A program made the translations under genes and the position numbers. Shown here piece by piece: positions 1,878 to 41,349 of a stretch of 41,349 nt of DNA. This DNA comes from a virus. The notes beneath the pieces were generated by a model. The model saw nothing but the letters and a program-made list of their open reading frames with translations. It ran no database searches and was not told the DNA's origin. Position 1 is the stretch's first letter, and each line of letters starts with the position of its first letter. Where the stretch lies: IMG/VR virus record IMGVR_UViG_3300013100_000007, positions 1 to 41,349 of that record; one strand, written 5' to 3'.

Positions 1878-4800
1878 ATGGCAGAAGTAGTTTCATTGGC
1901 TTCGTTTGATTTAGATACTAATAAATTAAAAAGCTCTCTTGATGCAGCGCAGGAAAAATATTTTGCGCTTAAAAAAGAACAGGAAGACACCGCTAAAAAA
2001 AGTAAAGATGTAAAAAAGCAAATTGATTTACTGACAAAGGCGCAAGAGGCTTTGACTTCTGCATCCGGAGACAATACTGAAGCTATAGAAAAAAATGCAA
2101 AAGAAATTCAGGATCTTGTAAAACAAGAGAAAGAATTATATAAAGCACAAGAATCTGTAAAAAACCAAATGAATATTTCCAGAAAGGAAATAACACAGAC
2201 TACTGCAGTATTAAATGCTTATAGAGACACAGAAGGTAAAACAACATCTTTAATTGATTTAGGCAATAAAGCACTTGAAAGACAAATTAATAATAAATCT
2301 CAGGCTAAACAGGCAAATATCGCGTTAAATAAAGTAGCTGACCAGTTAAACCCTGCTATTGAAGAAGAAAATGCACTTCTGATAAAGCTTAACGCTCAGA
2401 TGGATAAAAACACTGAGTTTATAAAAGAAAATAGTTCAGAAACTGCTAAGCAAAAAATGAATGTGGGTAATTATACTAAAAGTATAATTGATGCTTACAA
2501 AGCTTTAGAGGAAGAAGAAAAAGCATTAAATGATTGCAAGGTTGCTTTATTAGAACAAATTGATGCAACAGAAAAAGGAACTAAAGAATATACTATATAT
2601 ATTCAACAATTAAATATTTTAAACGTACAATTAGAAGATGTTTCTGATTCAATGGCTAAAGCCAGAGGCGAAAGCGAAAGTCTAGCAGGGGAATTTACTT
2701 TATTGGGAAGAACTGGGGATGAATTTGTAGCAAGCGCACAGAGAGCGGGTGGAGCAGGTCCATTGCTAACAAATACATTCGCAGCCTTAAGAACAGGAAT
2801 ACTAGGAGCATTGCAAGCAGGTCTTGCTTTTATTGCTACTCCTATAGGCGCGGCAATAGCCACGTTAGCTGTTGCGGTTGGTTTAGTAGTAGGAGCTTTT
2901 AAATTAGCGACTGCAACATTAAAAAGCACAGAAGAAGGCAGTCAAAGACTTGCTGTTGTAACTGGAGCAATAACCGGAGTTTTTAAAGGATTTTTTAAAG
3001 TACTTAAACCTTTGGGCGAATTCCTGGCAAATCAATTCATAAAATATTTAGAAAATGTTTGTAAGACCGCGGAGTTAGTTGCTGAGGGATTGGCTAAGGT
3101 TTTGGATTTTATAGGAGCAGAAAGCGCAGCTAAAGGAATAAGAAATTTCACAAATGAGGTAAAAGCTTCTTCTGTTGCGGCGGCTAATTTAGCAAAAGCT
3201 GAAGGAGAATTAGCTGTACAGCAAAGACAGGCGCAGAAGATACAATTAGATTATCAGAAACAAGCAGAGAAGCTAAGACAGCAACGTGATGATGAAACCA
3301 ATTCAATATCCAAAAGAATTGCTATAAACAACCAATTAGGTGAAGTCTTGCGTAAACAATCAGACAGCGAATTAGCTATAGCAAATAAGCAATTACAAGT
3401 AGCTAAGTTAAGAATTAAGTCTGATGGAGAAACGACCGAAGCACTAGATAAATTAGCAGAAGCACAAACCAATATTTCAGATATTCAAGAAAGAATTACT
3501 GGACAGGAATCAGAACAGTTGGCTAATTTAAATTCATTAAGAAAAGAAGCTTCAGACAAAGAGAAAGAAAGACAAGAAAAATTAACAGAGGCATTACTTA
3601 AAAATTCTAAAGCAAGAATTGATGAATTTATAGCAGAACAAGGATTTAGAAAAAAATCAGCAGAAGAAGCCTATCAGTTTAATTATGATCTTTATAATAA
3701 AGAATATGCTGATTTAAAATTACAACTTGATAAGAAAAAAATAACCCAACAAGAATATGATGCACAATTATTACAATTAAGAAATGATTATTTAGCTAAG
3801 AATGCAGAGCTTACAATTGAAAATGCTCAATTGGAATTAGATGCCGAATTATCTAAAAACCAAAAAATATTAGATTCTGATAAATTTCTATCTCAACAAC
3901 AATATGATTTAAAAAAACAGGCTTTAGAGAATGAATTACAATTACAGACTGAATTTGAAAAAATAAGACTTGAACAAGGCCAGATAAATCAACAAGAATA
4001 TAATAATGCAATTAACGCGATTAATGAAGAAAACAGAGTTGCAAATGCAGAATTAGATCAAGAAAGAAAAGTTGCTGATCAGGAGAAACAATTAGCTGAT
4101 TTAGAAGCTTTAAAAATAACTAATGAAGAAAACTTTTTAGCTCAGGCCGAAATTCAAAAAGCACAAAATGAAATATTAAGACAACAAGAAGTTGATAATG
4201 CAGAAAAGACTGGAGCAGACATTAGCTTAATAAATGCTAAGTATGCTAAAATGCAGGCTGATATAGAAAAACAAAAGCAAGACAATAAAATACAGCTTGC
4301 CAGTGATGCATTCGGTGGATTAGTTTCTATATTTGGAGCAGAAAGCAAAGCAGGTAAAGCGGCTGCAATTGCTCAAACAACAATTGATACTTATAAATCT
4401 GCAACATCTGCTTTTTCTTCTTTATCCGGAATACCAATTGTGGGTCCGGTATTAGGAGGTATAGCTGCGGCGGCAGCAGTTGCTTCTGGATTAGCAAATG
4501 TTAAAAGAATTGTTGGAACAAAAGAACCATCAATAAGCAAAACTCCAAGTTATGCAAGTGGTGTAATTGGAATTAGAGGCGTTGGCGGAGGAACAACTGA
4601 TGATATAAGGGCTAATTTATCAAGCGGAGAAAGCGTAATTAATGCACGAAGCACAGCAATGTTTGCAAATGAATTAAGTGCAATAAATCAAGCAGGAGGC
4701 GGAGTAGGATTAAATGGCAGTTCTAATATATTAGATCAGACAAATATACAACAGAGAGCAAATGACAGCCAATTAGTTAATGCAATTGCTGAGGCAGTAG

Positions 4801-4895
4801 CATTAGGTGCAGAGCTTGGAACAAATAAAGGAAGCCAAGACGGAATTAGAAAATTAACTGACGATAGAATTGTAATGCAAAATGCGAAGTTTTAA
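1878..4895 (+). CDS. Tape measure protein
   Basis: A 1005-residue protein, the longest in the genome. It is mostly charged coiled coil rich in Lys, Glu, Gln and Ala (roughly residues 15-265 and 440-860), with a hydrophobic Gly/Ala segment at about 300-345 and a Gly/Ala-rich region near 890-950. This build is typical of the proteins that set tail length in long-tailed phages and later contact the host membrane. It is translated just after the upstream tail gene and its 3' end overlaps the next gene by 14 bases. If the usual ~1.5 angstrom per residue holds, a tail of about 150 nm is expected. The function is assigned from length, composition and place, not from a catalytic motif. Confidence 0.85.
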   Translation: MAEVVSLASFDLDTNKLKSSLDAAQEKYFALKKEQEDTAKKSKDVKKQIDLLTKAQEALTSASGDNTEAIEKNAKEIQDLVKQEKELYKAQESVKNQMNISRKEITQTTAVLNAYRDTEGKTTSLIDLGNKALERQINNKSQAKQANIALNKVADQLNPAIEEENALLIKLNAQMDKNTEFIKENSSETAKQKMNVGNYTKSIIDAYKALEEEEKALNDCKVALLEQIDATEKGTKEYTIYIQQLNILNVQLEDVSDSMAKARGESESLAGEFTLLGRTGDEFVASAQRAGGAGPLLTNTFAALRTGILGALQAGLAFIATPIGAAIATLAVAVGLVVGAFKLATATLKSTEEGSQRLAVVTGAITGVFKGFFKVLKPLGEFLANQFIKYLENVCKTAELVAEGLAKVLDFIGAESAAKGIRNFTNEVKASSVAAANLAKAEGELAVQQRQAQKIQLDYQKQAEKLRQQRDDETNSISKRIAINNQLGEVLRKQSDSELAIANKQLQVAKLRIKSDGETTEALDKLAEAQTNISDIQERITGQESEQLANLNSLRKEASDKEKERQEKLTEALLKNSKARIDEFIAEQGFRKKSAEEAYQFNYDLYNKEYADLKLQLDKKKITQQEYDAQLLQLRNDYLAKNAELTIENAQLELDAELSKNQKILDSDKFLSQQQYDLKKQALENELQLQTEFEKIRLEQGQINQQEYNNAINAINEENRVANAELDQERKVADQEKQLADLEALKITNEENFLAQAEIQKAQNEILRQQEVDNAEKTGADISLINAKYAKMQADIEKQKQDNKIQLASDAFGGLVSIFGAESKAGKAAAIAQTTIDTYKSATSAFSSLSGIPIVGPVLGGIAAAAAVASGLANVKRIVGTKEPSISKTPSYASGVIGIRGVGGGTTDDIRANLSSGESVINARSTAMFANELSAINQAGGGVGLNGSSNILDQTNIQQRANDSQLVNAIAEAVALGAELGTNKGSQDGIRKLTDDRIVMQNAKF

Positions 4896-5172
4896 AAAAA
4901 AGATAACTACTTTGTTGAATGTCGGAATTGATCCTTATAAGGAGGGTAAGGGCAATTTCGATAATCCTCTTATTGAAGTTGAAGAATTGGCAAATACGCG
5001 TTTGTTAGAATGCATTAAATGCCCTAACTTTGTAGAAGAACCAATTGATTTTTTAAGAGTAAAAGACGAAAGAATAAAAGAATTGTCTAATAAGATGTGC
5101 AATGATTGTGGTTGCACATTAGCTTATAAGCTTAGACAATCAATTGAAAAATGCGAACTATGGAAAGAGTAA
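4882..5172 (+). CDS. Small zinc-ribbon-like protein after the tape measure
   Basis: A 96-residue protein with two Cys pairs, CIKC near residue 44 and CNDCGC near residue 74, spaced like a four-Cys zinc knuckle. It overlaps the tape measure stop by 14 bases and the following gene start by 22 bases, so the three are translationally coupled. Small zinc-binding proteins in this position are common in Bacteroidetes phages, but I do not know their job. It could be a tail component or a late regulatory protein. Confidence 0.6.
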   Translation: MRSFKKKITTLLNVGIDPYKEGKGNFDNPLIEVEELANTRLLECIKCPNFVEEPIDFLRVKDERIKELSNKMCNDCGCTLAYKLRQSIEKCELWKE

Positions 5173-5396
5173 TAGATGTAATAAATAATAATCTTGATGC
5201 AATTAATATTCTTTTAAAGATTGGACGTGTTCCTTTATCTTTAATGAATGATTACGAAATTTACTCGATGTATTTGGCTAATGAATCAGAACCAGAAAAA
5301 ATGAAACGATACCAAAAGGTAGCTAAGTATTATAAAGTTTCTGTAAACACGGTTAGAAAAGCCGTTAGAGAAATGGAGAAAAAAATAAACCCCTAA
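5151..5396 (+). CDS. Small helix-turn-helix protein
   Basis: An 81-residue protein. The C-terminal part (about residues 57-76, with VAKYYKVSVNTVRKAVREME) has the pattern of a helix-turn-helix as in replication or regulator wHTH domains. A second in-frame ATG at 5160 is an alternative start. It is the last gene of the tail operon and its stop codon lies inside the terminator hairpin that follows. A DNA-binding role is inferred from the motif; the target is unknown. Confidence 0.6.
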   Translation: MRTMERVIDVINNNLDAINILLKIGRVPLSLMNDYEIYSMYLANESEPEKMKRYQKVAKYYKVSVNTVRKAVREMEKKINP

Positions 5397-5414
5397 CTAA
5401 TTGCTAGGGGTTTT
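5388..5414. terminator. Two-way intrinsic terminator between convergent operons
   Basis: An 8-bp perfect stem (AACCCCTA with TAGGGGTT) closes a 9-base loop. It is followed by TTTT on the plus strand and by a T-rich run on the minus strand (complement of the A run at 5378-5389). The plus-strand gene stops at 5396 and the minus-strand gene stops at 5397, both inside the hairpin. Confidence 0.9.
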
Positions 5415-5687
5415 ATACAATAATTTAAGAAATAATGTAAGTGTAGAAACAGAGAATAACATAACAAATAAACCTATAATAATTCCTCTTAAAGGGAAAG
5501 GAATGGAATTAAATGAACAATCTATATTTATTTTAAAATCCCATGTAATAGCATTAATATTATATAATAAAATTATAATTATCATGTTAAAAATAAAAAC
5601 AAATATTCTGTTATAAATAAATATAAATGTTTTAAAAAAAGATAACCTTTTTATTTCGGATTTAAAAAATTCATAATTGTTTTTCAT
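5397..5687 (-). CDS. Membrane protein of the minus-strand operon
   Basis: A 96-residue protein with hydrophobic stretches at about residues 19-45 and 66-90, so two or three membrane segments, and a basic N-terminus. It is the third gene of a minus-strand operon, 2 bases after the preceding gene, and its stop lies in the shared terminator. I do not recognise the family. Small membrane proteins expressed from a separate promoter in the structural region are often superinfection-exclusion or host-change factors, which is only a hypothesis here. Confidence 0.6.
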   Translation of the reverse strand: MKNNYEFFKSEIKRLSFFKTFIFIYNRIFVFIFNMIIIILLYNINAITWDFKINIDCSFNSIPFPLRGIIIGLFVMLFSVSTLTLFLKLLYKTPSN

Positions 5688-5689
5688 AA

Positions 5690-5950
5690 CTATCTATTTA
5701 AAAAATAAGTTACTATAATTACAATTACAACAAAAACAAAAGCCCAAACTTTTTGCAATTGTTTTTTGATTCTTTGATTATCTATATATCTCATAAAATC
5801 ATGAGTTTTTGGATCTGATAGAATAGCATTTAATTTTTTATTTGTTTCTATTCTTTGCGAAATAATTTCACTTTCTTTTACTTCAAGCGAATTAACATAG
5901 TCAATCCCTTCTTGGCTCATTCCGATTTCTTCGTTTAGTGTTGGTTTCAT
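5690..5950 (-). CDS. Tail-anchored small membrane protein
   Basis: An 86-residue protein with a charged helical N-terminal part of about 65 residues and one C-terminal membrane segment (about 67-84, WAFVFVVIVIIVTYFL). That arrangement would leave the soluble part in the cytoplasm. It is the middle gene of the minus-strand operon, with 2-base gaps on both sides. No family recognised. Confidence 0.65.
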   Translation of the reverse strand: MKPTLNEEIGMSQEGIDYVNSLEVKESEIISQRIETNKKLNAILSDPKTHDFMRYIDNQRIKKQLQKVWAFVFVVIVIIVTYFLNR

Positions 5951-7501: not shown

Positions 7502-8587
7502 ATGGCGATTACAAATAACTTCGATACCGCAATTCTTGCTTTAGTAGACGATCTGGTTACAGCAGAAAAAATTGACATTTCAAATGTTGTTTTCGAACAG
7601 GCTTTTGAGGTTTCAAAATTAGCTGAGAATCACACAGTTGTTACTGGTGTGAGAAATGGAAACATTATTCCAATTTTAAGCAAAGCACCTGCTTACAATT
7701 CTTTTCCTTACAAAAATCCTTCAGACTGTAATATACCTGTTTGTGATTTAGATTTAGGATTTTCTGCAAAGCCTTGGACTTTAGGAATGATTGCGTGTAA
7801 AATTCCAATCTGTATTAATTCCTTCTCAGAAGATTTCCTTTTGTTTTGGAATCAGTATAAAAGATTATTCGGAGACGCTGATTTAAACAGCGCATTGATT
7901 CAATTCATTGTTTCAAAATTCCAAACAAATTTAGAGGCTGCAATGTGGCGTGTTGCTTTCTTTGGCGATACATCTACAGGTTCTGGAGATCCAAACTACC
8001 CTTTATTGCGTCCTGCTGATGGTATTTTTACGCAAGCCGAAGCAATGGATGGTTATAAGATTGTTGTCACTGAAAACGCGGCAGGAACTGGATTGACTGG
8101 AGAAGCTCTTTATGCTTACTTAAAAGAAGCTTATGAATATGCATCTGTTCAGCCTTGGTGGGATGAAACAAATATGCGTTTCGAAATGACACAAGCAATG
8201 GCTAGTGTTTTTGTTTCATGGTTAAACAGCTTAACAGATAGAACAGCTTATAACTGCGAATGTTTCTCTCCTGATGGGATTACAGCTCAAAGAACTTTCT
8301 CATTACAAAACATGATTAGAGTTTTCGGAATTGAAATTCATGTTCACAGAGAATTTGACGGAGTGATTTCTGCTTTAGATTTAGGAAATCCATACAGAGC
8401 ATTACTTACTTCTAAAACAAACGTTTTAATCGGAACTTCTGAATTAGATCAACTGCCAGCTTTTGATATTTGGTATTCAAAAGATGATGATATGATTTAC
8501 ATCAAAGGAGGCGCAAACATTGGAGCGGCATTAGTGCTAAACGAATACGTTTACATCGGTGCTGAATCAGCTTCGCCAAGTGTTTAA
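7502..8587 (+). CDS. Major capsid protein
   Basis: A 361-residue protein directly after the prohead protease and without signal peptide or membrane segment. Size, position and mixed alpha/beta composition fit an HK97-fold major head protein, and the sequence resembles capsid proteins of other Bacteroidetes phages by recollection. It carries an unusual number of Cys residues, including a C-x4-C pair near 78-83 and another near 100. The C-terminus is SPSV, a motif shared in form with the next protein and with the portal. Confidence 0.8.
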   Translation: MAITNNFDTAILALVDDLVTAEKIDISNVVFEQAFEVSKLAENHTVVTGVRNGNIIPILSKAPAYNSFPYKNPSDCNIPVCDLDLGFSAKPWTLGMIACKIPICINSFSEDFLLFWNQYKRLFGDADLNSALIQFIVSKFQTNLEAAMWRVAFFGDTSTGSGDPNYPLLRPADGIFTQAEAMDGYKIVVTENAAGTGLTGEALYAYLKEAYEYASVQPWWDETNMRFEMTQAMASVFVSWLNSLTDRTAYNCECFSPDGITAQRTFSLQNMIRVFGIEIHVHREFDGVISALDLGNPYRALLTSKTNVLIGTSELDQLPAFDIWYSKDDDMIYIKGGANIGAALVLNEYVYIGAESASPSV

Positions 8588-8605
8588 TTTAAAAAATAAA
8601 TAAAT

Positions 8606-9211
8606 ATGGCAACAGATAGTATTTGTGCAAAATTAAAAAACGGTCAGGACGCTTCTTGTGTGGCTCCTGTCCGTAGATATTACCAACAAGCCGTTGTAAT
8701 TAATAAAGACGATATTGACCCGGATAGCGTTGTTATTAATGTGCCGACTGCATTGGTTCCAGAGTGCTCATATAATGTAGAGTTTTCATTGAAAGATGGA
8801 ACAACAGGATATAAGTTTATCGGATCTGAAAACGGAAGCACTTACAAAGGCTATTTTGATAAAACATTATCTGATTTGGGTTACGCTCAATACACACACA
8901 ATGCTCAATTGCTTGTGGTTGGAGCTGACGAAGAAACAAAATGTATTCTTGATTCTTTAGGAAAAGGAAATTACGTTGTTGCTTTTCAATTTTCAGATGG
9001 TACAGTTGAGATTTACGGTATGGAATACGGACTTACTGCAGGAGACTACACGTATGATGTCCAGGAAGGCGGTGGAGGCACACCAATTATTCTTTCTAGC
9101 CGTGAAACAGCTCCAGAAAGATATGTTCCGCTTGTTTACAAATCAGGAACTCCAGGAGGGGAAACAGCAGATTTCGATTCTGCTTTTGCTAACGGAACGC
9201 CAAGCGTATAA
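8606..9211 (+). CDS. Structural protein, paralogue 1 (head decoration or tail tube candidate)
   Basis: A 201-residue protein located after the major capsid gene. It is clearly homologous to the protein at 11446-12069: both share an N-terminal Cys segment followed by a YYQQ motif, a central FDKT, EET(K/R)CIL, DGT(V/I)EIYG and (T)YTYDVQ. The predicted fold is mostly beta. Candidates are a head decoration protein or a major tail protein, and the sequence does not decide. The C-terminus ends in TPSV. Its stop codon overlaps the next start by one base. Confidence 0.65.
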   Translation: MATDSICAKLKNGQDASCVAPVRRYYQQAVVINKDDIDPDSVVINVPTALVPECSYNVEFSLKDGTTGYKFIGSENGSTYKGYFDKTLSDLGYAQYTHNAQLLVVGADEETKCILDSLGKGNYVVAFQFSDGTVEIYGMEYGLTAGDYTYDVQEGGGGTPIILSSRETAPERYVPLVYKSGTPGGETADFDSAFANGTPSV

Positions 9212-9672
9212 TGGAAGCTTTAGAATTAATTAATAAAGGAATGCACGAGGTTAGGAGAGATTCTAACCTTATGCATTTATACATTGAACTGTTTCAAAAA
9301 GCTTTTAATTTTAAGCCCGTTTGTGCTGGATGCAGTTTTTCAACCGATTGGTTTAAATTTGTTTCATTTTATAATCCAAAATCAGTAACTTTACAAAAAG
9401 AAAAAGTTATGAGTAAGACAATTTCAATTAAAAAGATACAGCATAAAATTTTATCATATAAAAAAGACGGGAGAACTTATCGTTTGTATGATAATAATTT
9501 GAACGATGATTTCATTAAAAACTATCTTGAAAATGGAACTGAAGAAGAATTAAAAGAACGAAAAAAAATGTTCAATTTCCCTTCATCCGAAAAACAAGAA
9601 ACAGAAACACATGAATCGGATTCAACTCATAAACCAAAAGGAAAAAGAGGCAGAAAACCAAAACAGGATTAA
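9211..9672 (+). CDS. Small virion-region protein with basic AT-hook-like tail
   Basis: A 153-residue protein coupled to the upstream gene by a TAATG overlap. The N-terminal part has a CAGC pair near residue 38; the C-terminal tail is basic and contains KGKRGRKPK, similar to an AT-hook. It is placed between the capsid-type genes and the portal, so a head assembly or DNA-contact role is possible. No family recognised. An internal ATG at 9409 (MSKTIS) could serve as an alternative start. Confidence 0.6.
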   Translation: MEALELINKGMHEVRRDSNLMHLYIELFQKAFNFKPVCAGCSFSTDWFKFVSFYNPKSVTLQKEKVMSKTISIKKIQHKILSYKKDGRTYRLYDNNLNDDFIKNYLENGTEEELKERKKMFNFPSSEKQETETHESDSTHKPKGKRGRKPKQD

Positions 9673-12741: not shown

Positions 12742-14397
12742 ATGAAAAAAATACTTTTTTTATTATTATTCATTACAGGATTTTTGCAAGCTCAGACATT
12801 GCAGAATCCAACTTTTGGAAACACGACAACCAACACGCTTAAAATTAAAACTCCTGCAACAGTTACAAGTGTTAATTTTTTAAGCACAAATGAAGCAGAC
12901 GGAAGTGTTAGCAAGATTGCTCCTATAAATGTAACCATTCCATATGTTCCGTCAAACTATACAAATTCAACGCAATCTATAGGTTCGCACTTGGCTGGAA
13001 TTGACACTCGTTTAGGTCAGATTGATGCAAATGTAATACATACTACAGGCAATGAAAGCAAATCAGGTATATTAAGCATAACTGATAGAATTCAGTTTGG
13101 CACAGCTAAAACAACATACGGACAGGCTATAGCGGTATCAAAAACAATAACATCTTTAGATAAACACATAATAGATGATTATTCGATTTTAACTCCAACA
13201 GTAGGCGGTGATGGATTTGGTGTTTTTGATGTTTCCACGGAAATGAATGGTTCGGTAAACAATAATCATTTCATGTCTTATCAGTCAAGAATGCTTTATA
13301 ATGCTTCTGGAAACTTAACTGATGCGTATGGTTTTACTGGATTTTTCGCTTATAACACCCACACAGGCAGTGGAACTATTACAAATGCTCACGGAGTTTT
13401 AATTAAAGATGTTGGTGGAACAAAAGGGGTAAACGGGAACATAACTAATAATTATGGATTAAAGATTGAAAATATCCAAAGAGGACAGACAAATTATGCT
13501 ATAGATTCTGACGGCGGTAACTGGAGAAACAGGGGAGATATATACGTTATGAACAAAGGCGTTTATTCTTATGGTGCAGGTTTTTCAGAGCTGGATCCAA
13601 ACCGTAGGTATATGTCTATAGAAAGCAATGCAAGCGGATCCACTTTTAACACTGCGGCGGCAGGAACACAGACACAGGCAGATTTTTTGTTTAGATCAAA
13701 ATATGAGCCTGCTGGTTCTTTTTTAGATGTTTTAAGAATTAGAGCAGATAATGGTAATGTCGGTTTAGGTACAAACCCTACGACTTATGGAACATTTAAA
13801 ACTTTATCTATTAATGGTGCTGGCGGTGGGCTTATTGAGTTCAAAACTAATGACGTTTTTAAGGCATATATAAGTAACGACAACACAAGTTTTGATATTT
13901 ATAATGGCGGGAATACACCTATTAATTTTATTACAAACACAAATTTACGAGGCTCTTTTTCAAGTACCGGAGTTTTCAGAATAAACGGATTATCTGGAAC
14001 AGGAAACAGAATAGTTGTTGCCGATGCAAGCGGTAATCTATCAGCAACAAACACAGATATAAGACCGTATAAAGTTTATACGGCTTTATTAACTCAGACC
14101 GGAACATCTGCACCAACAGCAACAGTTTTAGAAAACACTTTAGGAGGCACGATAGTTTGGTCTAGAAGTACTACTGGTGTTTATCTTGCCACATTAACAG
14201 GGGCTTTTGTTACAGGCAAAACCGCTTTATTCGGACATTTAAATCAAGGATCTTCGCAGACCGATAAAATGTCTTTTTTATGGAATTCTGTAAATGCAAT
14301 TCAATATCAAACTAAAAGCAGTACAGATGTATTGACTGATGGAATTTTTGGAAGTTCTTCAAATGGTTCAACAATAGAAATTAGAGTATATAATTAA
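12742..14397 (+). CDS. Large tail fibre-like protein with an N-terminal signal peptide
   Basis: A 551-residue protein rich in Asn, Thr, Ser and Gly. It has repeated beta-type segments and GxGTNP / GNRIVVADASGNL motifs common in Bacteroidetes fibres and adhesins. Residues 1-18 (MKKILFLLLFITGFLQAQ) form a textbook Sec signal peptide with a likely cleavage after the AQ. Virion fibres are normally assembled in the cytoplasm, so the signal is odd. It may be a fusion with a host surface protein start, or the product may be displayed or secreted. The place in the fibre cluster still favours a receptor-binding role. Confidence 0.65.
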   Translation: MKKILFLLLFITGFLQAQTLQNPTFGNTTTNTLKIKTPATVTSVNFLSTNEADGSVSKIAPINVTIPYVPSNYTNSTQSIGSHLAGIDTRLGQIDANVIHTTGNESKSGILSITDRIQFGTAKTTYGQAIAVSKTITSLDKHIIDDYSILTPTVGGDGFGVFDVSTEMNGSVNNNHFMSYQSRMLYNASGNLTDAYGFTGFFAYNTHTGSGTITNAHGVLIKDVGGTKGVNGNITNNYGLKIENIQRGQTNYAIDSDGGNWRNRGDIYVMNKGVYSYGAGFSELDPNRRYMSIESNASGSTFNTAAAGTQTQADFLFRSKYEPAGSFLDVLRIRADNGNVGLGTNPTTYGTFKTLSINGAGGGLIEFKTNDVFKAYISNDNTSFDIYNGGNTPINFITNTNLRGSFSSTGVFRINGLSGTGNRIVVADASGNLSATNTDIRPYKVYTALLTQTGTSAPTATVLENTLGGTIVWSRSTTGVYLATLTGAFVTGKTALFGHLNQGSSQTDKMSFLWNSVNAIQYQTKSSTDVLTDGIFGSSSNGSTIEIRVYN

Positions 14398-15343: not shown

Positions 15344-15721
15344 ATGAAAAAATACTTTCAACATTTTTTAAATCAAACAGTTCACTTACTCCTATATTTA
15401 ATGATGGGAGTAAGTGTTTTGTCTATTGTAATTCCATGGTTTGGATGTAATTTTGATTATGTTACATGGGGTAATTCTGGAGGTTTTTCTATAGCTTGCG
15501 ATATTATTTTTATTGAGAGATTTTATTTTAATAAAAGGTACTGCGGTTTGACTAAACACCTTCCAATAGCTATGATTTTTATAAATATTGGCAATATATT
15601 ATGTAACGAAATTTCACCAAAATATTACGAGCTTTATGGACAACTGTATGAGATAACTGTTTTTTCAGTAACTTTGTTGATATTCGCAATTATTGGTATT
15701 AAAAAAATGGTTAAAAAATGA
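15344..15721 (+). CDS. Lysis-cassette membrane protein
   Basis: A 125-residue protein with hydrophobic segments at about 14-32, 44-56, 74-90 and 101-119 and a basic C-terminal end. It starts 2 bases after the preceding gene and overlaps the next by 4 (ATGA). No family recognised; it may be an antiholin, a second holin or an accessory membrane protein. Confidence 0.55.
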   Translation: MKKYFQHFLNQTVHLLLYLMMGVSVLSIVIPWFGCNFDYVTWGNSGGFSIACDIIFIERFYFNKRYCGLTKHLPIAMIFINIGNILCNEISPKYYELYGQLYEITVFSVTLLIFAIIGIKKMVKK

Positions 15722-18863: not shown

Positions 18864-19361
18864 ATGGAATCGAAAAAAGACCACTACAGAAACGTATTTA
18901 AAAGCGATCATTTAGGAAGCGCAGATTTAGAAGATTTTATTGAACAAGGAAAATCTTTGATATTCACAATTAAGCATGTTAAACAGGAGAAAGGAGCTAA
19001 AGTAGCAGGAAAAAAAATAGATGCAAATATAGCTTATTTTGTGGAGAATATAAAGCCTCTTGTTTTAAACGCTACTAATTCAAAAATAGTAAAACAATTT
19101 ACAGGAAGCTCTTTTGTTCAAGACTGGAACAATGTTATTATAGAGCTTTATGTAGATGAAAATGTTCAAATGAAAGGTGTAACAACACAAGGAGTTAGAA
19201 TTAGACCAGTACAGCCAAAGGCAAAAACAAAGCCTGAATTTACAGAAGCTAATTTTAAACCAGCGAAGACTGCAAATGCTACACGTGAACAGATAGAATC
19301 AAAATACACACTTACCGAAGAAGTTTATCAAAAATATCTAGCTTATGAGCCAACAGCGTAG
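18864..19361 (+). CDS. Conserved phage recombination-cluster protein
   Basis: A 165-residue protein. I start it at 18864 because the ATG has an A-rich leader and the conserved sequence (HYRNVFKSDHLGSADLEDF) begins there; an upstream in-frame start overlaps the previous gene. Conserved blocks are KHVKQEKxxKVAGKK, KPLVLNATNSK and GVTTQGVRIRPVQP. I recall this family beside YqaJ-type exonucleases in Bacteroidetes phages. It may be a DNA-binding or annealing partner, but no domain proves this. It overlaps the exonuclease gene by 17 bases. Confidence 0.6.
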   Translation: MESKKDHYRNVFKSDHLGSADLEDFIEQGKSLIFTIKHVKQEKGAKVAGKKIDANIAYFVENIKPLVLNATNSKIVKQFTGSSFVQDWNNVIIELYVDENVQMKGVTTQGVRIRPVQPKAKTKPEFTEANFKPAKTANATREQIESKYTLTEEVYQKYLAYEPTA

Positions 19362-19962
19362 TGATGAATGGTATGAAATACGTTTAGGACGTTTTACAGC
19401 ATCCAGGATAAGCGAAATATTAGGCGTGCAAGGCTTAGGATTGACTGGAGAAAATTATGCATTTGAGAAGGCTTGTGAAATTGTTTTTGGGGAAGATGAG
19501 GATGATAGATTTGTTTCATTTGATATGCAAAGAGGAATTGATTTAGAGCCTATGGCATTTAGAAAATTCAAAGAGCTTAAATCAATGGACTTTATAGATG
19601 TTGAAGAAGCTTTTTTCTTTCCTTACAAAGACTTTGGAGGCGCAAGTCCGGACGGAATTTATTTTGAATCATGTTTAGAAATTAAATGTCCCAAAGCAAA
19701 GAAGTTTTTTAAATTGGTTGCTCAAGGAGAAAAGGCAATTGACAAAAAATACATAGATCAAATGCAATATCAAATGTTGTGCAGCAATTCTAAACAATGC
19801 AGTTTTTTTAATTACATTATATTCAAAGGACAGGAAATGTGGCATGAAATAATCGTAAAACGAGACGAAAACAGAATAAAATTCATTGAAGAAAGATTGC
19901 CTATTGCGGTTAAAAAGCGGGATGAATACGTAAAATTATTACAAACTAAAAAACAGTTTTAA
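19345..19962 (+). CDS. YqaJ/lambda-type exonuclease
   Basis: A 205-residue nuclease of the PD-(D/E)xK class. Visible motifs are an N-terminal RSDEWYEIRLGRFTAS typical of the YqaJ family, Glu68 in DLEPMA, Asp103 in GASPDG, and Glu112-x-Lys114 in LEIKCP. A QMQYQM helix follows the active site. The enzyme should degrade one strand of double-stranded DNA ends to give single strands for annealing. It starts inside the end of the preceding gene. Confidence 0.85.
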   Translation: MSQQRSDEWYEIRLGRFTASRISEILGVQGLGLTGENYAFEKACEIVFGEDEDDRFVSFDMQRGIDLEPMAFRKFKELKSMDFIDVEEAFFFPYKDFGGASPDGIYFESCLEIKCPKAKKFFKLVAQGEKAIDKKYIDQMQYQMLCSNSKQCSFFNYIIFKGQEMWHEIIVKRDENRIKFIEERLPIAVKKRDEYVKLLQTKKQF

Positions 19963-19965
19963 ATT

Positions 19966-20259
19966 ATGTCACAATTACTTTACGGAAGCCTAGACTTCTC
20001 AAAATTATTAGAATTAGCTAAAAAAGGAGACAAGGCTTTTTCAAAACATGAAAATGGTAAAATTTATCTAAATGTAAAAGTTTGGATTAATGATGAAAAA
20101 GACCAATTCGGAAATGACGCATCAATTCAGACGGCTTTTAAAGATGCCACAAAAGAAGAACGTCATTATTTTGGAAACATGAAACTATCCGAACAAATTC
20201 AAAAGCCACTTGAAGAAGGCTCTGATGAAATTCCAGACGAGGATTCGCTTCCATTTTAG
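19966..20259 (+). CDS. SSB-like small acidic-tailed protein
   Basis: A 97-residue protein immediately after the exonuclease. The body has a strand-rich part (GKIYLNVKVWIND) and the end is a very acidic tail finishing DEIPDEDSLPF. An acidic tail closing with Phe is the hallmark by which SSB and T7 gp2.5 bind partner proteins. The protein is short for a complete OB fold. A single-strand-DNA-associated role is inferred from the tail and neighbours. Confidence 0.5.
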   Translation: MSQLLYGSLDFSKLLELAKKGDKAFSKHENGKIYLNVKVWINDEKDQFGNDASIQTAFKDATKEERHYFGNMKLSEQIQKPLEEGSDEIPDEDSLPF

Positions 20260-20320: not shown

Positions 20321-20488
20321 ATGAAATTAACAGCAGAACAAAAAGCAAACAGAGATAACAACATGATAAATACATTGTCTTTAAAAAAAGATGTAAATCA
20401 AATAAGGCTACAAAAATTTATCGACAGCCATTATCCGATTAAAGAAAAATTTATTACGGTAGAATCCAAACTAAACAGCCCTGATTAG
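20321..20488 (+). CDS. Small hypothetical protein ending in a terminator
   Basis: A 55-residue charged protein. Its first 25 bases resemble the start of the gene at 22760 (MKLTAE), suggesting reuse of the same translation leader. The stop codon TAG forms the loop of the terminator hairpin at 20479-20500. Function unknown. Confidence 0.5.
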   Translation: MKLTAEQKANRDNNMINTLSLKKDVNQIRLQKFIDSHYPIKEKFITVESKLNSPD

Positions 20489-20500
20489 TCAGGGTTTTTT
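20479..20500 (+). terminator. Terminator closing the first early operon
   Basis: A perfect 6-bp stem (CCCTGA with TCAGGG) with a 4-base loop is followed by six T residues. The loop holds the stop codon of the upstream gene. Confidence 0.9.
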
Positions 20501-20537: not shown

Positions 20538-20570
20538 TTGTAATTTGTATATATTTTTTACATATATTTG
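20538..20570 (+). promoter_or_regulatory. Promoter of the XRE regulator operon
   Basis: A TATATTTG box at 20563-20570 follows the terminator of the previous operon. Upstream TTG triplets at 20538 and 20545 give spacings of 22 or 15 bases, less ideal than 19. The box is surrounded by TA-rich repeats (TGTATATAT and ACATATATTTGTACA, 20546-20574) with near two-fold symmetry, which could be the operator of the regulator encoded next. Confidence 0.65.
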
Positions 20571-20594: not shown

Positions 20595-20852
20595 ATGAAA
20601 TTAACAATGAATCATGTAAAATTAGTTCGCGAAGAAGTAGGAATGAAACAATGCGATTTAGCCGAAAGACTTAAAATAAATCAATCCAACTACGCGAATA
20701 TGGAAAAAGGAAAATTAGTTACTAAAAAGATTCCTAACATAATAAACGAAGCTCTTTTAATACTTATTACAAAGTTAGATCAAAAATTAAACGAAGCTAA
20801 TTTTAAATATCTTTATTTAAAAAGGCTTAGAAAAGAATTTTTAAATTATTAA
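20595..20852 (+). CDS. XRE-family helix-turn-helix regulator
   Basis: An 85-residue protein. After the ATG at 20595 it reads as a Cro/CI-type helix-turn-helix, with VKLVREEVGMKQCDLAERL and INQSNYANMEKGK over residues 8-40. The C-terminal part is a basic helix. It is the first gene after its own promoter, so it may repress that promoter. With no integrase in the genome it is more likely a lytic regulator than a lysogeny repressor. Confidence 0.75.
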   Translation: MKLTMNHVKLVREEVGMKQCDLAERLKINQSNYANMEKGKLVTKKIPNIINEALLILITKLDQKLNEANFKYLYLKRLRKEFLNY

Positions 20853-20854
20853 TC

Positions 20855-21049
20855 ATGCAAAGTCATTCAACTTATTTTAACGGAGTTCTAATAGAAGTAT
20901 TCGGAACTTACGAAGAACCCGAAGAAGAAACAGGCTATAAAGGCGGTTTTCTTGGAGAACGAATAGAGCACAAAGGCGAAGATATTACTAATTTGCTTTC
21001 AGAATCAATCAGAGAACAAATAGACGAACAAATAGCACAAGAAATATAA
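20855..21049 (+). CDS. Small acidic conserved phage protein
   Basis: A 64-residue acidic protein 2 bases after the regulator gene. The pattern (L)IEVFGTYEEPEEETGYKGG followed by GEDITNLLSESIREQI resembles a short family common in many phages. Function unknown. Confidence 0.55.
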   Translation: MQSHSTYFNGVLIEVFGTYEEPEEETGYKGGFLGERIEHKGEDITNLLSESIREQIDEQIAQEI

Positions 21050-21065: not shown

Positions 21066-21347
21066 ATGGAATTTAAAGGTACAGAAGGTAAATGGGATTT
21101 ACACGAAAATATAACATTAAATCAAAGTGGATTTTACATGCAATCTGTAGGGTCTGATTTAGATAACAAAATGTTAGTTTCAAATGCTTATGGGCATACG
21201 GAAAAAGAATGTTTATCAAACGCAAAACTTATTTCAAAAGCTCCTGAATTATTGCAAAAACTTATAGAAATATCAAATTTTGCAACATTAAAACCTGAAT
21301 ATAGAAAATCAATTCAAGACTTAATCAAAGAATCAACAACAATATAA
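21066..21347 (+). CDS. Cassette gene a1 (ends IKESTTI)
   Basis: A 93-residue protein containing GKWDLHE, NAKLISKAPELLQKL and a final LIKESTTI. The NAKLISKAPELL block resembles small phage proteins that begin EFKGTEGKW. Its last ~10 residues and the bases after its stop match the end of 22328-22543. It is the first member of a four-gene cassette that occurs twice. Confidence 0.6.
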   Translation: MEFKGTEGKWDLHENITLNQSGFYMQSVGSDLDNKMLVSNAYGHTEKECLSNAKLISKAPELLQKLIEISNFATLKPEYRKSIQDLIKESTTI

Positions 21348-21358
21348 AAACAAACAAA

Positions 21359-21535
21359 ATGATAATTCAGCAATCAGTTTATTATTCACAATACGATAAA
21401 GTTTGTTTAGTTCAATTTTACAGAACAATAAATTTAATCACACACAATCATTATACTTCAATTAGTTTTTCTAATGATATGATCGACCAAAACACAATTG
21501 GTAGATGGAAATTAAAATCACTTAAAAACAATTAA
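21359..21535 (+). CDS. Cassette gene b1 (ends KSLKNN)
   Basis: A 58-residue protein. Only its C-terminus (W-K-L-KSLKNN) matches the gene at 22555-22746; the rest differs. The last 23 bases of the gene and the leader of the next gene are part of an exact 39-base repeat shared with 22724-22762. Function unknown. Confidence 0.5.
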   Translation: MIIQQSVYYSQYDKVCLVQFYRTINLITHNHYTSISFSNDMIDQNTIGRWKLKSLKNN

Positions 21536-21551
21536 AACCTTAAACAAAATG
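21513..21551 (+). repeat. 39-bp exact direct repeat, copy 1
   Basis: Identical to 22724-22762. It spans the last codons of one small gene, the intergenic leader and the start codon of the next. It is the junction at which the duplicated cassettes are most conserved. Confidence 0.95.
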
Positions 21552-21845
21552 GACTTATCAAAATTTAATTTCCCTAAAGTAGAAAATTTAGCTTTTTCAA
21601 TATTGGATACTATTCCAGAATTACTTGAAGAAGCAAAAAAAAGAAACCCAAAAAAGGGAATGGAAAAATTTAATGAAATATTCTACTCAGGTGGTAAAAT
21701 TTCATTTAAAGAAGATGTTGAGGGAACTTGGAAAGAAAATGCTTTTTTATATGCAAAAGCTTTAATGAAATCTTGGTCGCCAAAACACGAACACAAAGAG
21801 ATTGTTGTTGGGATGATATTTGAAGAATGTTTAATTTTAAACTAA
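21549..21845 (+). CDS. Cassette gene c1, hypothetical
   Basis: A 98-residue protein in the third slot of the first cassette. No relation to the third-slot protein of the second cassette (22760-23137) is visible beyond the shared leader. No motif recognised. Confidence 0.55.
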   Translation: MDLSKFNFPKVENLAFSILDTIPELLEEAKKRNPKKGMEKFNEIFYSGGKISFKEDVEGTWKENAFLYAKALMKSWSPKHEHKEIVVGMIFEECLILN

Positions 21846-21851
21846 ACAACC

Positions 21852-22013
21852 ATGCAAAAGTTAATCACCCAAAACAACAAAACTCTTTTGGAAAAGTTTA
21901 TTCCAGAGAAAGGAAGTGCTTACGAGTATCATTATAAAATGATGTTTACCGATCCGAATGACATTTCATTTAATTATCCATCAAAATACAGTCTTAAAAA
22001 TGGAAACAAATAA
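21852..22013 (+). CDS. Cassette gene d1 (LLEKFIPEKGS)
   Basis: A 53-residue protein. Residues 8-22 (NNKTLLEKFIPEKGS) match the gene at 23149-23277, with an exact 35-base DNA match (21883-21917 and 23180-23214). The C-terminal halves differ. The next gene starts 14 bases before its stop. Confidence 0.5.
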   Translation: MQKLITQNNKTLLEKFIPEKGSAYEYHYKMMFTDPNDISFNYPSKYSLKNGNK

Positions 22014-22341
22014 AGAAAAAGAGTTCTTAGGTTTAAAACAAAAACTGCTTCAAGAAATTGAATATAGATATGAAATTATAAGGCAATTAAGTTGGGATTG
22101 TTCAAAAGAAAAAGGATTTGTACCTAATTTCATTAAGCAATTTTTAAAAATAAAAGAACCAAATGCACCTAATGTGTTTTGGAAAGATAGAGAAACTTAC
22201 GGAAGGTATTTAATTGACCATGACAAAGAACTTCATCAAGACATCATTATTGCATTACAAAAGTCAATAGATAAATTACAAAAAGACTACAACGAAGCTG
22301 ATTTTAACTATTTAAAACCATTTCAAAATGAAACAAATTAA
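22000..22341 (+). CDS. Hypothetical helical protein
   Basis: A 113-residue protein starting with METNKEKEF at 22000, the start that gives the shortest overlap with the upstream gene. It is strongly helical and charged. The stop overlaps the start of the next gene by 14 bases. It has no counterpart in the second cassette. Function unknown. Confidence 0.55.
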   Translation: METNKEKEFLGLKQKLLQEIEYRYEIIRQLSWDCSKEKGFVPNFIKQFLKIKEPNAPNVFWKDRETYGRYLIDHDKELHQDIIIALQKSIDKLQKDYNEADFNYLKPFQNETN

Positions 22342-22543
22342 CGGCCAATACGAACAAGAATCTTTTGAATGCGAAGTAAAGCACGTTCGATCAGAAAAAG
22401 ACGAAAACGAAGAATCTATAAATATTATTAAAGAATCTTTATCACATATAGCTGATTTAAAATTAGGCAATTCGGCGCCATTTCTACTTAGAAGTTTTGA
22501 AGATGAATGTAGAGAATTAATAAAAGAAGCAACAACCATCTAA
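22328..22543 (+). CDS. Cassette gene a2 (ends IKEATTI)
   Basis: A 71-residue acidic protein. Its end (ECRELIKEATTI) matches the end of gene a1, and its first ~88 bases are nearly repeated at 23465-23566. It opens the second copy of the four-gene cassette. Function unknown. Confidence 0.55.
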   Translation: MKQINGQYEQESFECEVKHVRSEKDENEESINIIKESLSHIADLKLGNSAPFLLRSFEDECRELIKEATTI

Positions 22544-22554
22544 AACCAAACAAA

Positions 22555-22746
22555 ATGAGCAAATTTCAAATTGAAAAAGTAGAACATTCATCTGTTTACA
22601 AAACGCATAATTGTTGTGTTGTTGATTATTATTCGAATTCAGATAAATTAATACAGTTGAATTTTACAGATCCTGTATTTGCTAAAGAAATGAGATTAAT
22701 TATTAGCGTTGGAATTTGGCGCATAAAATCACTTAAAAACAATTAA
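22555..22746 (+). CDS. Cassette gene b2 (ends GIWRIKSLKNN)
   Basis: A 63-residue protein with a HNCCVVDYY segment. The C-terminus GIWRIKSLKNN matches gene b1 (KSLKNN) and resembles GIWKIKYKPKN at the end of 28122-28286, so at least three genes share this ending. Function unknown. Confidence 0.55.
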   Translation: MSKFQIEKVEHSSVYKTHNCCVVDYYSNSDKLIQLNFTDPVFAKEMRLIISVGIWRIKSLKNN

Positions 22747-22762
22747 AACCTTAAACAAAATG
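22724..22762 (+). repeat. 39-bp exact direct repeat, copy 2
   Basis: Identical to 21513-21551 and in the same relative position: gene end, leader AAACCTTAAACAAA, and ATG of the following gene. Confidence 0.95.
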
Positions 22763-23137
22763 AAATTAACCGCAGAAAATGTAAATCGTATATTCTTAGA
22801 ATGTATGTTTGAACAAGGAGAATCAACCGAAAATTACATATTAGGTCAAGGTGTAATAACCAATGTTGGTTTTCATCCCGAAAGATTGAAACAAAACGAA
22901 CAGAACGTTTCTGAAATGCTTAATCAATTACCTGAAGAATTTAAAAAGGAATTAGGCGGAGGAATGAGTTTTTTAAATATGTGCAATGATAAAGATGGAA
23001 ATCAATGGAGCGATCTATATGCAACAATGGATCAATTGATAACTTTGGGTATTTCTTTAAATAAAGTCAAATTTTTAATGCCTAGAGAAATGTGGTCTGT
23101 TTTACCTGGCGGAATGCCGTATATTGTTGTACTGTAA
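22760..23137 (+). CDS. Cassette gene c2, hypothetical
   Basis: A 125-residue protein. The pattern NVNRIFLECMFEQGES, then GFHPERLKQN and LLxMCNDKDGNQWSDLY-like segments (FLNMCNDKDGNQWSDLY), resembles uncharacterised phage proteins I have seen in several phyla. It fills the third slot of the second cassette and is unrelated to gene c1. Confidence 0.6.
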   Translation: MKLTAENVNRIFLECMFEQGESTENYILGQGVITNVGFHPERLKQNEQNVSEMLNQLPEEFKKELGGGMSFLNMCNDKDGNQWSDLYATMDQLITLGISLNKVKFLMPREMWSVLPGGMPYIVVL

Positions 23138-23148
23138 ATTTTTAAATC

Positions 23149-23277
23149 ATGAAAAACCTCATCGCTAAAAACAACAAGGCTCTTTTGGAAAAGTTTATTC
23201 CAGAGAAAGGAAGTTTACCTGAAAAAGAAACAAAATCAACTGTTATTAATTGGTATTTTAAAATTTACCTAAACTAA
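23149..23277 (+). CDS. Cassette gene d2 (LLEKFIPEKGS)
   Basis: A 42-residue protein whose first half (NNKALLEKFIPEKGS) matches gene d1 while the second half is different. It contains the second copy of the exact 35-base repeat (23180-23214). Function unknown. Confidence 0.5.
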   Translation: MKNLIAKNNKALLEKFIPEKGSLPEKETKSTVINWYFKIYLN

Positions 23278-23464: not shown

Positions 23465-23566
23465 ATGAAACAAATTAACGACCAATACGAACAAGAATCT
23501 TTTGAATGCGAAGGAAAACACATTCTATCAGAAAAAGACGAAAACGAAGAATTTCTTTTTGTATGA
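23465..23566 (+). CDS. Truncated duplicate of cassette gene a2
   Basis: A 33-residue reading frame whose first ~88 bases are a near copy (about five or six differences) of 22328-22415. After the shared DENEE the frame runs into unrelated sequence and stops. It is likely a leftover of duplication, retained because its ATG and coupling to the next gene are useful. Whether the peptide has a function is unknown. Confidence 0.45.
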   Translation: MKQINDQYEQESFECEGKHILSEKDENEEFLFV

Positions 23567-23735: not shown

Positions 23736-24170
23736 ATGTGGTTCAAAGGAAAATCAAAAATAGATCATCAAAAAGCAAAAGATTACTTAAATCAATTAAT
23801 AGCTTCAGGATGCGACTTTGAGATTAAAAAGAAGCTAAATAAGCGCACATATTCTCAAAACAACTACATACACTTACTTTTTGGATATTTTGCCTTAAAT
23901 ACAGGATATACGCCCGAAGAAGTAAAACAGATAATTTTTAAGCAAATAGTTTGTCCAGAATATTTTGATGATGGAGAAAGAAATGTTTTCGGAGTGTTTC
24001 AGCAAAAATGGCGATCGACTGCAGACCTCAACACAAAAGAAATGTCAATTTGTACTGAAAGGTTTTTAGATTGGTCAGCACATGAAGTTGGAATAAGACT
24101 TCCTGAACCTTCAGATTTAGCTTTTTTAAGGGAAATAGAAATAGAAATAAACAACCAAAAACAAATTTAA
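23736..24170 (+). CDS. NinB-like recombination protein
   Basis: A 144-residue protein. It has KKKLNKRTYSQNNYIHLLFGYFALNTGYTPEEVK, WRSTADLNTKEM and HEVGIRLPEPSD segments in the order and spacing that I associate with the NinB/Orf family of phage recombination mediators (RT-x-QN, STA-x-L-x-TKE, A-x-E-x-GI-x-LP-x-P). These proteins help load recombinases or annealing proteins on SSB-coated DNA. NinG lies downstream at 30986, as in the lambda nin region, which supports the call. Confidence 0.6.
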   Translation: MWFKGKSKIDHQKAKDYLNQLIASGCDFEIKKKLNKRTYSQNNYIHLLFGYFALNTGYTPEEVKQIIFKQIVCPEYFDDGERNVFGVFQQKWRSTADLNTKEMSICTERFLDWSAHEVGIRLPEPSDLAFLREIEIEINNQKQI

Positions 24171-25220: not shown

Positions 25221-25903
25221 TGGCCGAGAATAAAAAATCATTCGTTTTGTATGCTGATCTAATAAAAAGCATAGAGCATTTAACAAATGAAGAAAAAGGA
25301 ATTTTATTTAATCATTTGTTAGAATATGTAAATGATAAAAATCCTATACTGGAGGATAGATTAGTATTGACAGCTTGGAAGCCAATAGAGTTACAGTTAA
25401 AAAGGGACCTTATTAAATTTGAAGAAGTTAAGGCTAAAAGAAGTGGTGCAGGAAAGCGTTCAGCAGAATTGAGAGCATTAAAATTAGAAGAACAAACCTC
25501 AACAAATCCAACAAGTGTTGAAAGTGTTGAACAAACCTCAACAAATCCAACTGTAAATGATACTGTTACTGTAAATGTAAATGATACTGTTACTGTAAAT
25601 GTAATAAAAGAAAATAATAAGGCTTTGCCTTTTAAATTTTTTGATTCATTGATAGATTTGGGGGCCGAAAAACAATTAGTATCCGATTGGATAGCTGTAA
25701 GGAAATCAAAGAGGCTATCAAATACAGTAACCGCGTTTGATAATTTTAAAAATGAAGTATCAAAATCAGGAAAAAACATTAATGATGTACTTAAAGAATG
25801 TGTTATTAATTCTTGGGGTGGCTTTAGAGCTGAATGGATTAAAGAAAATTTAGTTAAGCAATTGTATAAAAGTCCAACCGACCCAAAAAGACCAAGATCA
25901 TGA
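25220..25903 (+). CDS. DUF6291-type replication initiator-like protein
   Basis: A 227-residue protein. The N-terminal ~75 residues (FVLYADLIKSIEHLTNEEKGILFNHLLEYVND, then AWKPIELQLKRD) match the DUF6291 domain found in phage proteins that sit where initiators or helicase loaders sit. A basic segment and a low-complexity Thr/Asn/Val linker (about residues 90-132) are followed by a helical C-terminal domain. The linker is encoded by direct DNA repeats that look like iterons. It overlaps the primase-helicase gene by 4 bases (ATGA), so it probably marks the origin and recruits that helicase. Confidence 0.7.
   Translation: MAENKKSFVLYADLIKSIEHLTNEEKGILFNHLLEYVNDKNPILEDRLVLTAWKPIELQLKRDLIKFEEVKAKRSGAGKRSAELRALKLEEQTSTNPTSVESVEQTSTNPTVNDTVTVNVNDTVTVNVIKENNKALPFKFFDSLIDLGAEKQLVSDWIAVRKSKRLSNTVTAFDNFKNEVSKSGKNINDVLKECVINSWGGFRAEWIKENLVKQLYKSPTDPKRPRS
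25490..25600 (+). repeat. Iteron-like repeats inside the initiator gene (candidate origin)
   Basis: Three repeat families lie end to end. A 23-bp exact direct repeat is at 25490-25512 and 25529-25551. A 9-bp tandem (AAGTGTTGA) is at 25513-25530. A 24-bp exact tandem repeat is at 25553-25576 and 25577-25600. An AT-rich stretch follows. Lambda and many other phages carry the replication origin as iterons within the initiator gene. Confidence 0.6.
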
Positions 25904-41183: not shown

Positions 41184-41349
41184 TCATAAATAATAATTTA
41201 ATTGATTTACCAAAATCAACAAACACAAAATTTACAAAGCAAATTTCAGATATATTTGATATTGCTAATGTTGCAGTTTCTTATACTACTTCATTTGAAT
41301 TTGAATTCACTCCTGCAAATACTCAGGCAATGCAGTTTTTGGGAATACC
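41171..41349 (+). CDS. Start of the tail protein that continues at base 2
   Basis: The start ATG at 41171 overlaps the end of the preceding gene by 13 bases. The frame runs through the terminal repeat to the end of the window and is the same frame as the gene ending at 1876, giving 643 residues in total on the circle. Confidence 0.85.
   Translation, partial: MVELIINNNLIDLPKSTNTKFTKQISDIFDIANVAVSYTTSFEFEFTPANTQAMQFLGI
41227..41349. repeat. Terminal direct repeat, right copy
   Basis: Identical over 123 bases to 1-123. See the left copy: it shows that the record is a circular or circularly permuted genome opened inside a tail gene. Confidence 0.95.

Follow-up and report, generated by a model that had tools for sequence, protein, structure and literature searches.

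How does a phage genome come to hold the same row of small genes twice, with short stretches of the two rows identical and much of what lies between them unrelated? The question is raised by the region at 20.5-23.7 kb of a metagenomic contig, the 41,349-base virus record IMGVR_UViG_3300013100_000007 (analysed over its full length and hereafter the window). Here the original prediction had recognised a cassette of four genes in two copies, and had seen in it a gene-swapping platform that recombines at short conserved junctions, perhaps by means of the phage's own exonuclease and annealing system. The window carries a direct terminal repeat of 123 bp (1-123 and 41227-41349; exact-repeat search), which makes it probable that the contig represents the whole of a circularly closed phage genome in a single turn. 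Isolated Flavobacterium phages (the lillamy/hattifnatt group) have a primase ~75% identical to the one encoded here; the latter was absent from the 84,980 bacterial and archaeal genomes searched, so that there are no prophage relatives for comparison. The relatives considered below (L numbers) are 45 loci with a related primase, with complete records for 28 of them.

The region is close-packed, in the order HTH gene, 64-aa ORF, a1, b1, c1, d1, e, a2, b2, c2, d2, f, a3, 56-aa ORF and NinB. Its features and those at its borders are as follows.

19345-19962, + strand: YqaJ/RecE-like exonuclease, upstream of the slot (profile matches)
19966-20259, + strand: small protein, weakly Enc34 ssDNA-binding-like (match below the Pfam cut-off), left border of the slot
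20477-20496, + strand: intrinsic-terminator-like hairpin (8 pairs, 4 GC, then TTTTATT), ending the upstream unit
20544-20570, + strand: match to the flavobacterial-type promoter TTTG-N-TAnnTTTG, just upstream of the array operon
20598-20852, + strand: HTH regulator, first gene of the operon (matches to HTH families)
20855-21049, + strand: 64-aa ORF, without counterpart in unit 2 (ORF list and family search)
21066-21347, + strand: a1, phrog_1273-like (E 1.3e-9), final ~30 nt and leader common to a2
21359-21535, + strand: b1, b family (C-terminal motif GxW[RK][IL]KSLKNN; sequence comparison)
21549-21845, + strand: c1, phrog_36680-like, unrelated to c2 (family search, pairwise comparison)
21852-22013, + strand: d1, 53 aa, first 22 residues homologous to d2, the rest not
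22000-22341, + strand: e, 113 aa, fifth gene (x) of unit 1, stop codon overlapping the a2 start
22328-22543, + strand: a2, three-part mosaic (first 88 nt as in a3; 22430-22528 L060-like; end as in a1)
22555-22746, + strand: b2, b family (sequence comparison)
22760-23137, + strand: c2, phrog_26039 (E 1.6e-39)
23149-23277, + strand: d2, 42 aa
23283-23462, + strand: f, Zn-ribbon-like (weak matches), gene x of unit 2
23465-23566, + strand: a3, truncated third unit (88 nt, 94% to the a2 start, beginning exactly at the ATG)
23736-24170, + strand: NinB/Orf-type recombination mediator, bordering the array (phrog_72, E 2.2e-15)

All eight of the ORFs first described, a1 to d1 and a2 to d2, are present and their order is kept in both copies, but the repeated unit is one of five positions, a-b-c-d-x, with a length of ~1.2 kb. 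Two units are complete and a third, truncated one begins at 23465, the spacing of a2 and a3 being that of a further unit. The promoter pattern is not above chance across the whole window and is weak by itself; the match at 20544-20570 is supported by its position, directly between the terminator and the HTH gene. Between e and the upstream HTH gene there is a weak C-terminal resemblance (39 nt, 74%; Z 3.4), and homologue searches with e found none. Scans of the small genes against defence-system and NCBIfam collections gave weak matches, e.g. an HTH, and in profile searches that covered the array and its neighbours no integrase came to light, such as an integron-like gene-capture system would have. 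The c2 family occurs in unrelated large phages of Gram-negative bacteria; the predicted fold of c2 is poor (pLDDT 64) and uninformative.

The two long exact repeats reported for the locus were borne out by an exact-repeat search:

21513-21551, + strand: 39-bp repeat, copy 1 (end of b1, leader, ATG of c1)
22724-22762, + strand: 39-bp repeat, copy 2 (end of b2, leader, ATG of c2)
21883-21917, + strand: 35-bp repeat, copy 1 (inside d1, residues 12-22)
23180-23214, + strand: 35-bp repeat, copy 2 (inside d2)

Together with two of 32 and 26 bp at the same locus, they are the longest exact repeats of the genome if the 123-bp repeat at its ends and one run of 29 bp of low complexity (25552/25576) are set aside. 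Low-complexity in-frame repeats (TNPTVNDTVTVNV) occupy 25490-25604, in the linker of a replication protein. Simulating the window 40 times with a first-order Markov model gave longest exact repeats of 15-22 bp; a chance origin of the four repeats (39, 35, 32 and 26 bp against at most 22 simulated) is ruled out.

The edges of these shared blocks are sharp. In the 39-bp repeat the final part of b is followed by a leader of 13 nt and then by the start codon ATG of c, with 36 identical bases to the left of the ATG, and to the right of it the sequences are unrelated at once. At the a-to-b junction 46 nt are shared at 87% and the similarity ends at the ATG of b, while the a2/a3 repeat starts exactly at an ATG and stops after 88 nt. 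Identity at the b/c junction and in a2/a3 thus breaks off within 0-3 nt of the ATG, and the shared blocks of the array mostly start or finish exactly at start codons. The d genes follow another pattern: their common LLEKFIPEKGS had been described as a gene end, but it comprises residues 12-22 of proteins of 53 and 42 aa, near the start, and it is the C-terminal part that differs. The 35-bp block coding for it is preceded by 31 nt with 9 differences; under even divergence an identical stretch of this length would have a probability of 0.71^35 = 6e-6. A role of the 39-bp block as promoter or terminator was also considered and is ruled out, as it matches neither and the intergenic gap is 13 nt.

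Which parts of the units are homologous differs from gene to gene. The interiors had been held to be unrelated, and for c this holds: the local score of c1 against c2 is no better than that of shuffles (p=0.45), and the two fall into different PHROGs (phrog_36680 and phrog_26039). The x genes e and f are likewise unrelated, and the interiors of a and d show no detectable similarity between units, a sharing its end and d its start. By contrast, b1 and b2 are divergent homologues throughout (Z 11.9 over the whole; Z 3.5, p=0.007 without the shared end). A test for homology of the whole unit accordingly fails on c, x and parts of a and d, whereas the marks of a tandem duplication, i.e. the gene order twice head to tail and a duplicated edge in the form of the partial unit a3, are present.

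These observations are best accommodated if the array arose by tandem duplication, followed by gene replacement through short-homology recombination at the junctions that were retained, and we regard this history as probable. One a-b-c-d-x unit of ~1.2 kb would have been duplicated in tandem, and the genes between the junctions would then have been replaced or lost via homologous recombination over the remaining short identical stretches: in d its start, elsewhere a gene end together with leader and ATG. Exchange of this kind would have affected the c and x genes, the N-termini of a and the C-termini of d, while b would have diverged and retained the C-terminus typical of its family. Survival would have been limited to exchanges that left start and stop undisturbed, and it is for this reason that the edges would lie at gene borders.

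Part of the pattern could also arise if a plain tandem duplication had diverged by point mutation and the shared ends were held by constraint on the protein or on translation initiation. The common C-termini named in the original prediction, IKE(S/A)TTI in a and KSLKNN in b, are indeed there, and family members of b end similarly elsewhere: gene 60 of Flavobacterium phage 11b in VGMWRIKQLKN (Z 12 and 10), and gp50 of hattifnatt9-1 in VGVWKIKKVN. Because of these endings KSLKNN is, on sequence comparison, a C-terminal protein motif of a small phage b family. One relative, in turn, has an a-family protein that again contains IKEATxx, and A-rich AAACAAAATG leaders are also present at further genes in the window (20308, 17884). 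Ordinary protein-family constraint thus accounts for part of the conservation of the a and b ends, and the full-length homology of b1 and b2 fits it as well. It does not account for 39 identical bases, synonymous sites and leader included, next to a nearly saturated b interior and with abrupt edges, a patch that recent common descent does explain; nor does it fit the unrelated c1/c2 and e/f, c1 and c2 matching different families. As an account of the array as a whole we consider constraint rather unlikely.

A second possibility, that two paralogous cassettes were gained separately from related phages and came to lie side by side in the slot with no duplication inside this genome, draws on the relatives. 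The middle of a2 (22430-22528) recurs over 99 nt at 83% in an L060 gene whose beginning and end are not those of a2, and the slots of the relatives hold unrelated genes, the YqaJ-to-primase interval containing different small genes in each. The L060 gene (4961-5167) encodes a small protein in which a GKLYGKIGNKY N-terminus is joined to the a2 middle, an instance of domain shuffling below the level of the gene. A row of genes in the same tandem order twice, with a truncated third copy at 94%, is however the expected trace of a tandem duplication, and separate gain is accordingly unlikely.

Tandem duplication with later replacement is also in keeping with what the relatives show of the slot. When all cassette proteins were compared with the 28 whole records, the a2 middle in L060 and one a1 homologue (L066, 1420-1683) were the sole matches; b, c, d, e and f were absent from the 45 related-primase loci and these 28 records, and the array region had no match by DNA similarity among catalogued phages. 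YqaJ, the SSB-like gene and NinB follow one another directly in L022 and L028, whose slot is therefore empty; here it is filled with 3.4 kb. The array is best explained as the content of a variable-cargo slot inside a recombination operon, reaching from the SSB-like gene to NinB, and its small genes would be dispensable early accessory genes. A further suggestion, that such an array maintains itself in flavobacterial phages as a generator of new early genes, its gene-end/leader/ATG repeats, longer than the pairing threshold, letting units expand, contract and swap small genes inside a single genome, is one to which we would give little credence.

Exchange at gene borders is not peculiar to this genome. 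Among the relatives we collected 210 mosaic edges, defined as the ends of high-identity blocks between them; as some loci are near-duplicates, the events counted are partly dependent on one another. Start codons have 20% of these edges no more than 5 nt away, and stop codons 22%. The corresponding value for random positions is 2% (highest in 200 draws: 7% for starts, 6% for stops), which amounts to an approximately tenfold enrichment. A single-gene case is provided by hattifnatt9-1 and sniff9-2, which are ~98% identical around the site and differ exactly by a b-family gene at the NinG stop, the sniff9-2 arrangement being matched by ~20 further isolates. The gene concerned, gp50 of hattifnatt9-1 (L011, 11925-12095), is a presence/absence difference against ~20 otherwise similar Baltic Flavobacterium phage isolates.

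Long non-tandem exact repeats in the relatives also tend to precede start codons. One of 35 bp in L006 (2420-2454 and 4750-4784) ends at an ATG and has a promoter-like TATATTTGTA upstream; one of 72 bp in L014 (659-730 and 3928-3999) ends five bases past an ATG; one of 26 bp in L053 ends at an ATG; and L038 has one of 36 bp (13927-13962 and 15640-15675). The repeats of L006, L014 and L038 place a promoter or leader directly upstream of the starts of unrelated genes, in the manner of mobile regulatory cassettes. In L053 the end of a gene X and a NinG-like gene occur twice (3772-5899 and 8416-9665; 92%, 87%) around two unrelated DNA methyltransferases; this 9.7-kb metagenome contig possibly records another tandem duplication with replacement, or else it is a chimera. 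L053 also has a second, truncated primase copy.

Are the junctions, then, a dedicated platform, selected as recombination sites for the continual capture of small genes? Exact repeats above the pairing minima of recombinases, edges at ATG codons and ATG-ending repeats in relatives are all features that such a platform would have. The same edge pattern is, however, found in relatives that lack such repeats, no site-specific enzyme was seen in the array or in those of its neighbours that were scanned, and the junctions are private to this genome among those searched. A search for the 39-bp sequence in other genomes, which had been proposed as a check, found no match, and LLEKFIPEKG was likewise in no other genome searched as a junction. 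The other check proposed, a change of gene content exactly at these sites in related phages, had no material to work on, as the junctions are absent from every relative found. A degenerate KSLKNN-plus-stop pattern had one match in IMG/VR, in an unrelated contig (L005) and not at a gene end; the LLEKFIPEKG pattern had none there, and among genomes it occurred in Fulvivirga and Methylobacter contigs, at about chance expectation. As there is no second genome with these junctions, neither parent of an exchange is identified and their use between phages is not supported. Of the swapping at short junctions originally proposed, exchange at gene borders thus stands, with the sharp ATG edges, the clustering of edges and the b-gene insertion in its favour, but a dedicated platform, because its junctions are private, is not supported and is very unlikely. 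The best reading is ordinary phage mosaicism in an unusually legible form. That an assembly artefact has fused two strain variants of one locus, as might be thought of a metagenomic contig whose units could be alleles, is favoured by none of the results and is extremely improbable, the 123-bp overlap of the contig ends pointing to a long assembly word against internal repeats of at most 39 bp, and the d1-e-a2 joints between the units being intact.

The likely agents of tandem duplication and replacement would be the YqaJ exonuclease and NinB with an annealing protein, or the RecA of the host. Minimal exact pairing is 23-27 bp for Red-beta and 31-34 bp for RecA, and the 39- and 35-bp repeats exceed both (PMC3945230). 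As to the phage's own exonuclease and annealing system, profile searches identify the YqaJ exonuclease, NinB and NinG as recombination genes, but no annealing protein was identified. The gene at 18864-19361 occupies the slot in which L009, L027, L030 and L051 have an ERF-like recombinase (an assignment read from the gene sequence). No recombinase domain was recognised in its product, the fold of which is beta-rich and resembles SSB weakly at best; the C-terminal tail resembles that of the relatives' ERF-like proteins and the main domain is another one, a case of domain replacement. It may be an annealing or ssDNA-binding protein that has escaped recognition, and is a candidate for that role.

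Most mosaic edges in phages keep no trace of how they were formed, whereas the junctions of this array are still identical within one genome. Their lengths and positions can therefore be read directly, and they predict deletions of 1,211 bp, joining b1 to c2, of 1,297 bp, joining d1 to d2, and of 1,137 bp, joining a2 to a3. The edge statistics in the relatives show in addition that exchange in this phage group proceeds by whole genes, even those of only ~60 amino acids.

Two known arrangements invite comparison. In the ninR region of lambdoid phages, short boundary sequences between small genes reportedly serve as exchange points. Both these and the array junctions are short homologies between small genes in a region of recombination genes; the lambdoid sequences are common to several phages, whereas the array junctions lie within one genome and are so far private to it. 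The marks of boundary-sequence mosaicism are thus present as far as short near-identical flanks of unrelated genes, abrupt edges at gene borders and recombination functions are concerned, and absent as regards the same boundary sequence beside different genes in another phage. In T4-type phages, mobile regulatory cassettes (promoter stem-loops) in front of unrelated small genes are said to pair and to shuffle them. Such a cassette combines promoter and stem-loop, while the array junction is a gene end, a 13-nt leader and an ATG inside an operon, with no promoter; the promoter-plus-leader repeats of L006 are nearer to the T4-type cassettes than are the array junctions.

Exchange over 25-40 bp of identity would have its enzymatic basis in the relaxed homologous recombination that phage recombinases carry out (De Paepe et al. 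2014, PMC3945230; Martinsohn et al. 2008, PMC2327257), as demonstrated for lambda-like phages of E. coli. A published parallel is offered by genes 67/68 of the mycobacteriophage Island3 compared with Brujita, where adjacent small genes have ~60 bp of common 3' ends and differ in the rest, a situation read as short-sequence recombination at gene ends that creates or removes a gene (Pope et al. 2011, PMC3029335). As in the array, shared gene ends stand beside a differing remainder; there, one gene is concerned and the recombinant junction is known from a sister genome, whereas the array involves a five-gene unit and three kinds of junction, with no sister genome. The class of mechanism is thus a known one, of which the tandem, multi-gene form described here is a good new example.
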